Of a stretch of DNA of 64,000 bases, positions 6,784 to 10,055 are shown piece after piece. The position numbers were made by a program, and so were the translations under genes. The notes beneath the pieces were generated by a model that was not told where the DNA came from, searched no databases, and was given only the letters and a program-made list of their open reading frames with translations. This stretch comes from Candidatus Villigracilaceae bacterium (lineage in GTDB: Bacteria; Chloroflexota; Anaerolineae; Anaerolineales; Villigracilaceae). The stretch spans positions 62,001 through 126,000 of the forward strand of contig JAPKMP010000007.1 in NCBI GenBank assembly GCA_026645935.1, given 5' to 3'. Positions within the stretch are counted from its first letter, which is position 1. Each line of letters opens with the position of its first letter.

Positions 6784-7155
6784 TCAGTCTGTGATGTCTT
6801 TGCGGAACAAGAACAGCAGCGCGGTGAAGATCACGTTGATGATCAGCGGAGGTCCTGCCTGAGAAAAATTCAACACGCCCATCACCAGCTGATAACCAAA
6901 AACGACCACGTGACCCGTCGTGAGTGCGAGGATAACGCGCGAGAGTTTGCCCAAGCCGTCGCCGCCGCGCGCGGCAAGGAAGGCAACGTAGGCGAAGATC
7001 AGCGTCAACTGTCCGTAGAGCATGTTCAACGCCGCGTCAGGCAGTTTGTTATTCAAGACCTTCTCGGCGATGCCCGGCAGGAACAGGAACAGAAAGCCGA
7101 ACACCGCCAGGTATGCTGCGATGACGTACAGGGTGATTTGTAGTCGCTTGCTCAT
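6784..7155 (-). CDS. Small four-helix membrane protein
   Basis: The 123-residue product has four predicted membrane helices and no catalytic motif. I do not recognise a named family, although it resembles the DUF4345/DoxX-like small membrane proteins and its neighbour at 9163-9552 in size and layout. The start at 7155 is set by AAAGGAGAAATAAA immediately upstream. It follows the UGA-containing methyltransferase gene by 49 bp and is probably co-transcribed with it. Confidence 0.75.
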   Translation of the reverse strand: MSKRLQITLYVIAAYLAVFGFLFLFLPGIAEKVLNNKLPDAALNMLYGQLTLIFAYVAFLAARGGDGLGKLSRVILALTTGHVVVFGYQLVMGVLNFSQAGPPLIINVIFTALLFLFRKDITD

Positions 7156-7204: not shown

Positions 7205-7990
7205 TCACATCGGCTTGCGGGCGCGGAAACTGATGCCCTGCGTGCCATAATCCAACGCGTCCGAGGGATCGGGCGTGTCCACGTAACTGTTGTATTTGTG
7301 GACGATCTCCCCGTTTTCAAAACCAGCCGCGCTCACGGCGCGGAGCAACTCTGCATCCAGCAGAGCGCCGGCAATTCAGCCCGTCCACAGCGAGATGTCG
7401 TCCAGCGCGTCGGACGGCAGCTCGCGTTCGACGAGAATATCCCCAACCTGTAAACGTCCGCCTGGTTTGAGGATGCGGAACCATTCGCGCAATGTTTCGG
7501 TCTTGTCGAGGGTCAGGTTGAGGACGCCGTTGCTGATGACCACGTCCGCGAAGTTATCGGGGATGGGAAGCGACTCGGCGAGTCCTTCGCGGAACTCGAC
7601 ATTGGATGCGCCCATCGCTTCCGCCCCCGCCCGCGCCTTGTTCAACATCTCGGGGGTCATGTCCACGCCGACGACTTTTCCCACCGCACCAACCAAGCGC
7701 GAGGCGATCAGCGAATCGAACCCCGCGCCCGAGCCGACATCCACGACCGTTTCTCCAGCGTTGACTGTCCCCACCGAGTATGGGTTCCCTGTCCCTGCAA
7801 ATGAAGCAACATTGGCTTCGGGCAAGTCTTTGTACAGGCTTTCGTCGTAGCCGAGCATGTCTGCAAGTTTGCGACCCGTGTGGAAGTGATAGCCCTTGGT
7901 CGGGTCGAGTGCGACGTTGGTGTATTCTTTTTGAATCTCCACCCTGAGTTCTTCGAGCGAAATCTTTGGAAGGTTTTGATGGTGTGTCAT
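7205..7990 (-). CDS. ArsM-like SAM methyltransferase with in-frame UGA (candidate selenoprotein)
   Basis: The frame starts at 7990 (AAAGGAGAATCAA upstream), meets TGA at 7378-7376 (codon 205), then continues in the same frame for 56 more codons to a TGA at 7207-7205, 261 residues in all. Motif I (VDVGSGAGFDSL) and the post-motifs mark a class I methyltransferase of the arsenite-methyltransferase group. The interrupting codon lies in LWTG[UGA]IAGALL, which corresponds to the catalytic arsenic-binding cysteine region (ECLGGAL) of ArsM. The downstream part (AELLRAVSAAGFENGEIV...) is the normal family C-terminus. A hairpin begins 10 nt after the UGA. Selenocysteine decoding is inferred; a sequencing error or nonsense mutation from a Cys codon is the alternative. 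Confidence 0.72.
7349..7365 (-). promoter_or_regulatory. Candidate bacterial SECIS hairpin
   Basis: On the - strand, CTCTGC (7365-7360) pairs perfectly with GCAGAG (7354-7349) around a UGGAU loop. Additional G-U and G-C pairs can extend the stem past a one-base bulge. The apical loop starts 17 nt after the UGA, inside the known 16-37 nt range for bacterial SECIS elements, and has G among its first two loop bases, as such elements require. Confidence 0.5.
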
Positions 7991-8089: not shown

Positions 8090-8518
8090 TCATTCCTCCA
8101 GCGCTTTCTTCAAGGCTTGCATGGTGTCGTCCATTTGCTTGTCCATCTGGCTTTTCATCAAGCCTTCGGCAAGTTTGAACAAACCGCCGAACTCACCTTC
8201 ACCGAAGAGAGTAACCAGCGTGCCGCCGCCTTCCGCTTTGAACAAGAATCCGCCATTCATGGAGACGGGCGCGTCCACAGTTTTGTATTCGTAGCGCGTG
8301 GACGGCTCCCAGACGGTAACTTCGGACTTCATCTCCATTTTCTGTCCGAGCATTTTCGACACGAACGCGTATTGCGTGCCGACGCGCGTCGCGCCCTCGG
8401 TCAGGATTTTGGATTCGATGAATCCGACCATCCATTTGGAGGCGTTGCTGAAGTCGGTGGCGAAGGCAAATGCCTTCTCGGGCGCGCAGTTGATGTGGAT
8501 TGATTTTTCGAGTTTCAT
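8090..8518 (-). CDS. SRPBCC/START-like domain protein
   Basis: The 142-residue protein starts with the typical SRPBCC beginning (KSIHINCAPEKAFAFATDFSNASKWM) and ends with a long amphipathic helix (LAEGLMKSQMDKQMDDTMQ), which forms the lid of the hydrophobic cavity in this fold. Members bind lipids or other hydrophobic ligands or act as cyclases; the ligand is unknown. GAAGGAGAAAATC precedes the ATG at 8518. It lies directly upstream of the methyltransferase gene on the same strand, so a shared transcript is likely. Confidence 0.82.
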   Translation of the reverse strand: MKLEKSIHINCAPEKAFAFATDFSNASKWMVGFIESKILTEGATRVGTQYAFVSKMLGQKMEMKSEVTVWEPSTRYEYKTVDAPVSMNGGFLFKAEGGGTLVTLFGEGEFGGLFKLAEGLMKSQMDKQMDDTMQALKKALEE

Positions 8519-8592: not shown

Positions 8593-9084
8593 TTAAAACG
8601 GCTTGAGTCTCATCAACCACACGATGACGGCGAATCCGCCGTAGCCGACGATGGTCAGCATGACGGGGTTGACCTTCGCCAGGAGCGCGTGGACTTCTTC
8701 GATGTTCCCCGCGGGTTCGGGCGGAAACCACTTCCCTTTCACGCTGTAGCGCAGTCCCAAAAGTTTGCGGGCGTCGCTGTAAATGTTCGTGCCGAAAAGT
8801 CCCATCGCGACGACGATCGCAAATCCCAGCAGGAGCGAGAGCCATGGCCAGATGCGCGCCTGGAATCCGCCCATGAACGCGGCGAGGATGCCGAAGAGCA
8901 GGAACGCCCACATCAGGCGGGTCATCCAGGGATACGAAGCCGCCGAAAGGTCGAGCATGAAGCGTATCTTTTGCGGGTCGCGCTCCGTTTTGAGGGAGAA
9001 CGCCACGATCACCGAAACGCCGTGCGCGAGCAGAAATCCGACGACGAAGAGGATGTGCAGGAAGACGACGAGTTGATAAAGCAT
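8593..9084 (-). CDS. Polytopic membrane protein (DUF2269/CopD-like)
   Basis: The 163-residue protein has four hydrophobic segments: an N-terminal helix with HILFVVGFLLAHG, two central helices and a C-terminal helix. A conserved-looking His in helix 1 and another shortly after recall the DUF2269/CopD-like membrane families. No enzymatic motif is present. AAAGGAGAATCCC precedes the ATG. Function is unknown; it sits in a run of small membrane proteins around the candidate selenoprotein. Confidence 0.75.
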   Translation of the reverse strand: MLYQLVVFLHILFVVGFLLAHGVSVIVAFSLKTERDPQKIRFMLDLSAASYPWMTRLMWAFLLFGILAAFMGGFQARIWPWLSLLLGFAIVVAMGLFGTNIYSDARKLLGLRYSVKGKWFPPEPAGNIEEVHALLAKVNPVMLTIVGYGGFAVIVWLMRLKPF

Positions 9085-9162: not shown

Positions 9163-9552
9163 TCAAGCCGTCTTTCCCGACATGCTGGCTCTGCCTGCCA
9201 CGAAGAAACCGACCGCAATCAACGCCTGGACGGTCGCCATGACCCAATGCGTGGACACGGACGTATCCGTGAATTGACCGTACAGGCTGGTCAGCGCGTG
9301 CAGGGCAAAGAAAACGGTCAAGCCGAGCGTCACGCCGTCGCGCGCCTTCGATGGTTCCGCGTTCCGCACCAGCCAGGCGATCAAGCCGAGACCGATGTAG
9401 GCTACACCCCAAAATCGGATCATCATGGATAACATGCCTGGCGCGGATTCAGGTAGCGTTCCAGCAGAAGCGGCGGCTGGCGCAATGAGCCCGAACAGCC
9501 CACTCGCAATTAAGTAGACGGCCGCGATGATGAACATAACGTTGAGTTTCAT
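9163..9552 (-). CDS. Small four-helix membrane protein
   Basis: The 129-residue product has a first helix that could be read as a signal anchor, then three more membrane segments; a Gly/Ala-rich loop lies between helices 1 and 2. It resembles the 123-residue protein at 6784-7155 in architecture. The start at 9552 (MKLNVMF) is chosen for its AAAGGAGAAGACAAA ribosome binding site; a nine-residue in-frame extension lacks one. No function can be assigned. Confidence 0.72.
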   Translation of the reverse strand: MKLNVMFIIAAVYLIASGLFGLIAPAAASAGTLPESAPGMLSMMIRFWGVAYIGLGLIAWLVRNAEPSKARDGVTLGLTVFFALHALTSLYGQFTDTSVSTHWVMATVQALIAVGFFVAGRASMSGKTA

Positions 9553-9692
9553 TTTGTCTTCTCCTTTGGTTGAAGTCAATATGAGTCAAGCTCGGATGAA
9601 TCCTTCATCCACTTTTCGAGAAACGCGGTGAGTTCGTTTAGGTTTTAAATCCGATACGCTGCCTCCTTTCTGGTTTGATCAATATCCGCGAG

Positions 9693-10055
9693 TTAATATG
9701 TGAACATGCGGTCGTGTTCGAGCGACAGGCGCACCAGCACATTCGGCATGGCGAACTCGGCGAGCTTGCCGTTTAAATCCGCGTCGGTCAGTCCGCGCGC
9801 CTTGCTCGACATGCCCGAAAGGTAGAACTTGCCGCCGCCTGCAACGATGACATCGTAGTGTTCGCGCAGTTTCCCTGTGCCTAATCCCGCGAGGTTGTCC
9901 AACACAGCGTCGCGCAGTAATTGAACCGCGTCGCCTGCGAGAAAAAGCGAAACACTGTGACCCTCGTCAACCGCGCTTTTGGCGACAAGAAAGGCGAGCG
10001 CGGCGCGGGTGGGGTCTTCAGGACCGTGCGTGAGGTGAACGAGTATCTTTGACAT
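9693..10055 (-). CDS. DsrE/DsrF-like family protein
   Basis: The 120-residue protein follows the DsrE fold: strand ILVHLTHGPEDPTRA, a hydrophobic strand SVSLFLAGDAVQLL, and the loop FYLSGMSSKARGL. In sulfur-relay members the last loop carries a catalytic Cys; here the position has Ser/Met, so persulfide chemistry by this residue is unlikely and a scaffold or binding role is inferred. AAAGGAAAATAAC precedes the start. Its start lies 1 bp from the stop of the gene at 10057. Confidence 0.82.
   Translation of the reverse strand: MSKILVHLTHGPEDPTRAALAFLVAKSAVDEGHSVSLFLAGDAVQLLRDAVLDNLAGLGTGKLREHYDVIVAGGGKFYLSGMSSKARGLTDADLNGKLAEFAMPNVLVRLSLEHDRMFTY

Follow-up and report, generated by a model that had tools for sequence, protein, structure and literature searches.

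A very probable selenoprotein with a predicted ArsM fold and an apparently rebuilt metalloid site in a Villigracilaceae bacterium

The closest described systems are the arsenite S-adenosylmethyltransferases of the ArsM type. Three cysteines, Cys72, Cys174 and Cys224, are conserved in a survey of ArsM sequences (PMC5552862), and all characterised enzymes apart from the one-cysteine TtArsM of Thermus thermophilus carry two or more (PMC8649762). TtArsM is active with its single cysteine and two histidines are proposed as replacement ligands, the residues concerned being His40, Cys77 and His179; according to its authors it is distant from the characterised ArsM (PMC8649762). Selenocysteine (Sec) is also on record in this family. 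A 2008 ocean survey has an arsenite S-adenosylmethyltransferase (PRK11873) among its selenoproteins (PMC2398784), and Table 1 of a 2026 review gives an ArsM selenoprotein as experimentally verified, with the motif UxxG, citing Fomenko 2007 (PMC13188914). The same table assigns UxxG to each of the fusion families NF041537 (ArsM/AhpD), NF041536 (ArsM/DUF2284) and NF047649 (methyltransferase/UXPK-star). The original prediction had left open whether the subfamily discussed below was known as a selenoprotein; ArsM-family selenoproteins are already in print and in NCBIfam. The presence of Sec in the ArsM family is thus already catalogued, and the surprise is Sec as the sole remaining chalcogen at the arsenic-binding positions. 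In the open-licence literature we found no description of a subfamily without Cys72 and Cys174.

The stretch of DNA analysed here, referred to as the window, is 64,000 nucleotides long. The following features of the methyltransferase gene are used throughout.

7205..7990, minus strand: Sec-containing ArsM-like SAM methyltransferase (putative, from translation), 261 residues; close orthologues align over residues 1-261
7988-7990, minus strand: ATG start (translation)
7205-7207, minus strand: terminal TGA stop (translation)
7376..7378, minus strand: in-frame UGA, putative Sec205, aligned with Cys224 of CmArsM
7348..7366, minus strand: bacterial SECIS-type hairpin, with a 6-bp stem (7360-7365/7349-7354), a G.U pair (7366/7348) and the loop UGGAU (7355-7359)
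7790..7792, minus strand: Thr67, at the position of ArsM Cys72 (alignment)
7526..7528, minus strand: Gly155, at the position of ArsM Cys174 (alignment)
7871..7888, minus strand: HFHTGR motif (His35, His37), about over the canonical N-terminal Cys-Cys (alignment, motif in relatives)

An in-frame TGA at codon 205 of a methyltransferase had been claimed, and translation bears this out: the frame from the ATG at 7990 to the TGA at 7205 is open on both sides of codon 205 and reads past it as LWTG-U-IAGALL. AAAGGAG is found immediately 5' of the ATG. The product contains a methyltransferase domain (Pfam Methyltransf_31, E 3.7e-29), and a copy with 91% identity exists at locus L060.

Structurally, the protein is predicted to have an ArsM fold. 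The AlphaFold model has a mean pLDDT of 90, and its best matches are CmArsM (4fr0, Z 26.6, rmsd 2.2 over 215 residues; 6cx6, Z 26.2) and CrArsM (5evj, Z 25.2), with 213 to 222 residues covered over the three entries. From about Z 21 downwards, further ArsM entries are mixed with unrelated natural-product methyltransferases, such as AtmM. In the alignment to solved ArsM structures (4fr0 and others), the UGA falls at the catalytic-cysteine position, as had been predicted, i.e., Sec205 corresponds to Cys224 of CmArsM, while Cys72 has become Thr67 and Cys174 has become Gly155. None of the three ArsM positions is therefore a cysteine, and the score against the ArsM model NF008823, 227.7 bits, is below its cut-off of 263. 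The description of the product as an ArsM-like methyltransferase consequently stands as far as the fold is concerned, whereas its assignment to the arsenite-methylating type is doubtful given Thr67, Gly155 and the low model score.

Like the Sec-ArsM of NF008823/PRK11873, the window protein is a SAM methyltransferase with a predicted ArsM fold and a UxxG motif, here UIAG. The fusion models NF041537, NF041536 and NF047649 are among the best NCBIfam scores (242.6, 221 and 231.7 bits), but the window protein is far under their cut-offs (510, 575 and 460, respectively), has no fused second domain and ends at residue 261. A search of 113 genomes of a clostridial class with the ArsM model (E 1e-35) gave 64 matching places, of which three carry TGA. 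These three Sec-ArsM (L274-L276) have TGA at the codon-205 site but keep the motifs of Cys72 and Cys174 (GCGNP and SNCV), whereas the window subfamily is without both cysteines and falls below the NF008823 cut-off. TtArsM is likened to the window protein by description only.

Relatives were collected by searches of the order and the phylum (400 evenly drawn genomes each, E 1e-55), and the loci are those among the matches listed. For the site and hairpin counts and the tree, the subfamily was defined by Gly155 (in the tree Ser was also allowed) and canonical ArsM by Cys at the Cys174 position. The absence of Cys174 from the subfamily is therefore a matter of definition in these counts, while the missing Cys72 and the clade itself are not. 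No subfamily row that covers positions 67 and 155 has Cys at either, whether position 205 is Sec or Cys; L042, counted as canonical, has Ser at position 67. Judged from these alignments, no chalcogen but the putative Sec, replaced by Cys in some relatives, remains at the three arsenic-binding positions. A tree of 97 proteins splits the subfamily (43 Sec, 11 Cys) from 43 canonical ArsM with support 100/99, with a warning from the tree program that long branches meet between the two groups.

The N-terminal region of the protein differs as well. In an alignment of 18 proteins, the Cys-Cys motif present in five canonical rows falls about over HFHTGR. HFH is retained in every covered subfamily row except L144 and L171, two UGA relatives in which His37 is Ile or Leu, so the histidine pair is not absolute. 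The genome of the window also encodes a separate paralogue, L002, with the motifs GCGDP, SNCVINL and AGCVAGA.

Two further groups of sequences were seen among the relatives. A more remote UGA paralogue, L277 (G113:C219:39366-41034, minus strand), is about 38% identical and reads WFA-U-IAGA; its residues aligned with Cys72 and Cys174 are Val and Gly, HFHTGR is replaced by HPFAVGR, and its genome additionally encodes a Cys member of the subfamily. Separately, the UGA members L038, L170, L171, L142, L172, L176, L066 and L177 have a C-terminal extension, mostly EW..AL..L.C with one Cys, a possible partner for Sec. Neither the window protein nor the sequences most closely related to it have this extension.

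The gene neighbourhood bears on the substrate. Near the methyltransferase the window contains the following genes and frames.

6784..7155, minus strand: small membrane-protein-like gene, directly downstream, no Pfam match; L179 and L060 have a homologue adjoining the methyltransferase, L180 has one 2.3 kb off
8090-8518, minus strand: polyketide-cyclase-like (SRPBCC) frame (Pfam)
8593-9084, minus strand: upstream frame without a Pfam match
9163-9579, minus strand: upstream frame with a weak DUF4345 match below cut-off
9693..10055, minus strand: DsrE-like gene, 1.7 kb upstream, not adjacent

No OsmC, ArsR-rhodanese or persulfide-dioxygenase-like gene was found within 4 kb of the window methyltransferase. 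As only DsrE is near, the surroundings of the gene in the window itself provide weak evidence.

Across the relatives the picture is richer. Within 4 kb of the 50 subfamily loci we found DsrE 14 times, OsmC 14, ArsR-type regulators 11, a persulfide-dioxygenase-like metallo-beta-lactamase 8 and MFS transporters 9, against 0, 0, 54, 1 and 3, respectively, for the 91 canonical loci; the counts over all 50 are biased by neighbour profiles built from clusters in 27 of them, flank lengths differ between loci, and 20 of the 91 canonical controls come from the window's family. In 19 held-out loci that did not enter profile building, DsrE occurs in 7 and the persulfide-dioxygenase-like metallo-beta-lactamase in 4 (L209 repeats the contig of L067 and was left out of this count; L061 repeats that of L184). 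OsmC appears in 1 of 20 later loci, and two of its 14 matches are weak (L180, L187). Most DsrE genes, 12 of the 14, are on the same strand as the methyltransferase and within 400 nt of it. Strong matches to an ArsR-rhodanese fusion make up 10 of the 11 ArsR-type neighbours in the subfamily. At canonical loci almost every ArsR match is weak (E about 1e-6 to 1e-11), and these genes are thus probably plain ArsR. The sole NCBIfam match of the OsmC neighbour is the OsmC-related (seleno)protein, below cut-off. For the persulfide-dioxygenase-like family (labelled PDO_MBL by us) the best NCBIfam model is GloB, also below cut-off, followed by the sulfur dioxygenase Blh.

A recurrent set of ArsR-rhodanese fusion, persulfide-dioxygenase-like metallo-beta-lactamase and MFS was also observed, with two to three of these genes near L067, L189, L196, L207, L209, L213, L216 and L217. 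MFS is missing in L189 and the ArsR match is weak in L207. Besides MFS, LuxR-type neighbours were seen.

Our first guess at the substrate, which falls a little short of probable, is a reactive sulfur or selenium species: Sec205 would take up persulfide, sulfide or selenide, SAM would methylate it, and the result would be detoxification or volatilisation. We prefer it to a trivalent arsenical on two grounds, the lack of the thiolates that bind arsenite and the position of many relatives beside genes of types common in sulfane-sulfur handling. The DsrE, OsmC and persulfide-dioxygenase-like neighbours, nearly or wholly absent from the canonical loci, fit it, as does the return of DsrE in the held-out loci. 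What holds the guess back is that the association is one of gene neighbourhood, varies by lineage and is weak in the window, that just a small part of the controls belongs to the window's own family, and that the neighbour families occur in other stress settings too. In its favour, a link of sulfane-sulfur ArsR regulators with pdo and rhodanese genes has been published (PMC12423496).

That the protein is an arsenite methyltransferase, in which Sec replaces Cys224 and As(III) is bound by Sec and two histidines in a TtArsM-like manner, is in our view the less likely reading, although several observations suit it. The predicted fold is that of ArsM, the solved structures nearest to it are ArsM enzymes, Sec sits at the Cys224 position, and since a one-cysteine arsenite methyltransferase is known (PMC8649762), the loss of thiolates is compatible with arsenite. 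However, equivalents of Cys72 and Cys174 are lacking in every covering subfamily row, the ArsM model is missed by the margin given above, the same genome has the separate Cys-bearing paralogue L002, and the ArsR-type genes that stand near more than half of the canonical loci are found at few subfamily loci, where all except one are the rhodanese fusion. A soft chalcogen or metalloid is, from these sequence comparisons, the expected substrate class, and free arsenite is probably not the target.

The candidate selenoprotein of the original prediction is supported by the exchange of UGA and Cys in homologues, by the SECIS-type hairpin and by the Sec machinery of the genome, and the UGA205 methyltransferase is, on this evidence, very probably a genuine selenoprotein.

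After removal of duplicates, 75 fetched sequences were judged at the site. Among the matches listed, 45 of the 56 distinct subfamily sequences have UGA and 11 have Cys, and the 19 canonical ArsM paralogues of the same set all have Cys and none UGA. The search of the window's family gave matches at E 1e-30 in 103 of its 152 genomes; all nine copies with at least 83% identity, the window's own included, have one TGA each. The remoter relatives from the order and phylum have TGA or Cys at the site (again among the matches listed), and one subfamily member, L066, is a candidate division KSB1 record. No close member was found on a plasmid: 62 plasmid records matched, all with less than 60% identity. 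On the tree, the Sec label requires six changes, at least four of them forced by well-supported branches, and the Cys label within the subfamily requires five, at least three of them forced. From the tree, we infer that Sec is the older state in the subfamily.

A hairpin with a UGGAU loop, starting 10 nt past the UGA and in the bacterial SECIS range, had been proposed and is confirmed in the sequence. It reads CUCUGC-UGGAU-GCAGAG, with a 5-nt loop that has G at position 2, a stem of 7 bp if the G.U pair is counted, and 16 nt between UGA and loop. The published model of the bacterial SECIS element describes a loop of 3-9 nt with G in the first two positions, 16-37 nt from the UGA, whose stem has 4 bp or more (PMC13188914). 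This loose model fits all 45 UGA copies, and it also fits 6 of the 11 Cys members and 16 of the 19 canonical ArsM. A stem of at least 6 bp, on the other hand, is found in 42 of 45 UGA copies against 1 of 11 Cys members and 1 of 19 canonical ArsM (UGA versus subfamily Cys, Fisher p 8e-8, ignoring relatedness). Only the long stem, not the loose model, separates the UGA copies from the controls.

At each of the six stem positions, pairing is kept in 37 to 42 of the 42 distinct UGA sequences, and at two of these positions both sides have changed with pairing preserved, counted in sequences and not in events. The folding-energy signal is modest, with mean z values against synonymous shuffles of -0.92 for UGA copies, -0.19 for Cys members and +0.19 for canonical ArsM. 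The hairpin score is matched by at most 5% of a sequence's own synonymous shuffles in only 25 of the 45 UGA copies; for the window, a fraction of 0.08 of the shuffles reaches it.

The genome of the window (G000, 4.33 Mb, 98.7% complete) contains selA (537 bits, cut-off 268), selB (358 bits, cut-off 242), tRNA-Sec, i.e., selC (66.7 bits, gathering score 47), and selD (362 bits, cut-off 125). A lack of selB or selC would have spoken against the original prediction; both are present. The selD frame (L028) has one internal TGA, around which it reads SACAG-U-ASK, and SelD is likely a second selenoprotein of this genome. With selA, selB, tRNA-Sec and a TGA-bearing selD present, the organism very probably makes selenoproteins.

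The 51-genome set divides into 44 genomes with a UGA copy, 6 whose best copy has Cys, and G539, a fragment without the site that is outside both counts. At a cut of 55 bits, which is our own choice, tRNA-Sec is found in 41 of the 44 UGA genomes (40 at E 1e-10) and also in 4 of the 6 Cys genomes; the phylum sample gives 111 of 151 at E 1e-10, so tRNA-Sec is common anyway. The UGA genomes without it are G108 (67% complete), G269 (82%) and G584 (99%, 10% contaminated).

The codons 3' of the UGA are, from these comparisons, under purifying selection. Compared with L031, the 56 codons after the UGA have 5.5 nonsynonymous and 6.5 synonymous differences (pN 0.043, pS 0.158; before the UGA pN 0.052, pS 0.394), and in each of the 13 comparisons pN after the UGA is smaller than pS, less clearly so for L037. 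That synonymous differences are few in this part agrees with a constraint on the RNA. L037 keeps the UGA with a pN of 0.232 after it, and its frame changes near the end. In L037 and L061 the C-terminus diverges from about residue 234 and the frame as aligned contains another TGA, which looks like a frame change.

It is very improbable that the UGA is a true stop, with a 204-residue product and a remainder that is dead or subject to regulatory readthrough. Such a frame would retain nearly the whole SAM-binding domain, but the residues after the UGA are conserved and under purifying selection, UGA and Cys have been exchanged several times on the tree, and the long-stem hairpin accompanies UGA and not Cys; we reject a stop at this codon on the grounds of the selection and the repeated exchange. 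Least probable of all, and refuted by independent genomes, is a sequencing or assembly error at a real TGC or TGT codon, as copies with the same TGA occur in 44 of the 51 genomes, and 37 of the 44 belong to other genera than that of the window. The terminal TGA (7205-7207) was also considered as a further Sec codon, which we reject, as the close orthologues L031, L032, L034, L035, L036 and L041 have TAG or TAA there; orthologue L033 is three codons longer and ends in TGA.

The joint reading, a selenoprotein with a rebuilt metalloid site in an ArsM-fold subfamily, is one we hold with high confidence. We suggest that SelB and tRNA-Sec would decode UGA205 as Sec under the direction of the 3' hairpin. 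With its SAM-binding domain and ArsM fold, the product would have a rebuilt metalloid site, in which HFH lies about where ArsM has Cys-Cys. The selenolate of Sec205 could then hold or activate a soft substrate beside the methyl group of SAM, possibly assisted by His35 and His37, and the substrate would become methylated with SAM as the methyl source. Going further, it can be speculated, although we consider it doubtful as a whole, that this mostly-Sec clade has left arsenic: one selenol and histidines would have replaced three thiolates, and reactive sulfur or selenium would be methylated, in some lineages with ArsR-rhodanese regulators, DsrE, OsmC and persulfide-dioxygenase-like partners.

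Redox chemistry is the presumed role of most prokaryotic selenoproteins (PMC9312934), and a methyltransferase with a selenol is rarer. With an ArsM site pared down to one Sec and natural Cys versions in close relatives, the advantage of Sec compared with Cys and the identity of the substrate both lend themselves to direct testing. If annotation calls the members of this subfamily arsenite methyltransferases, or truncates them at the UGA, the counts of arsenic-methylation genes in the phylum could be wrong.
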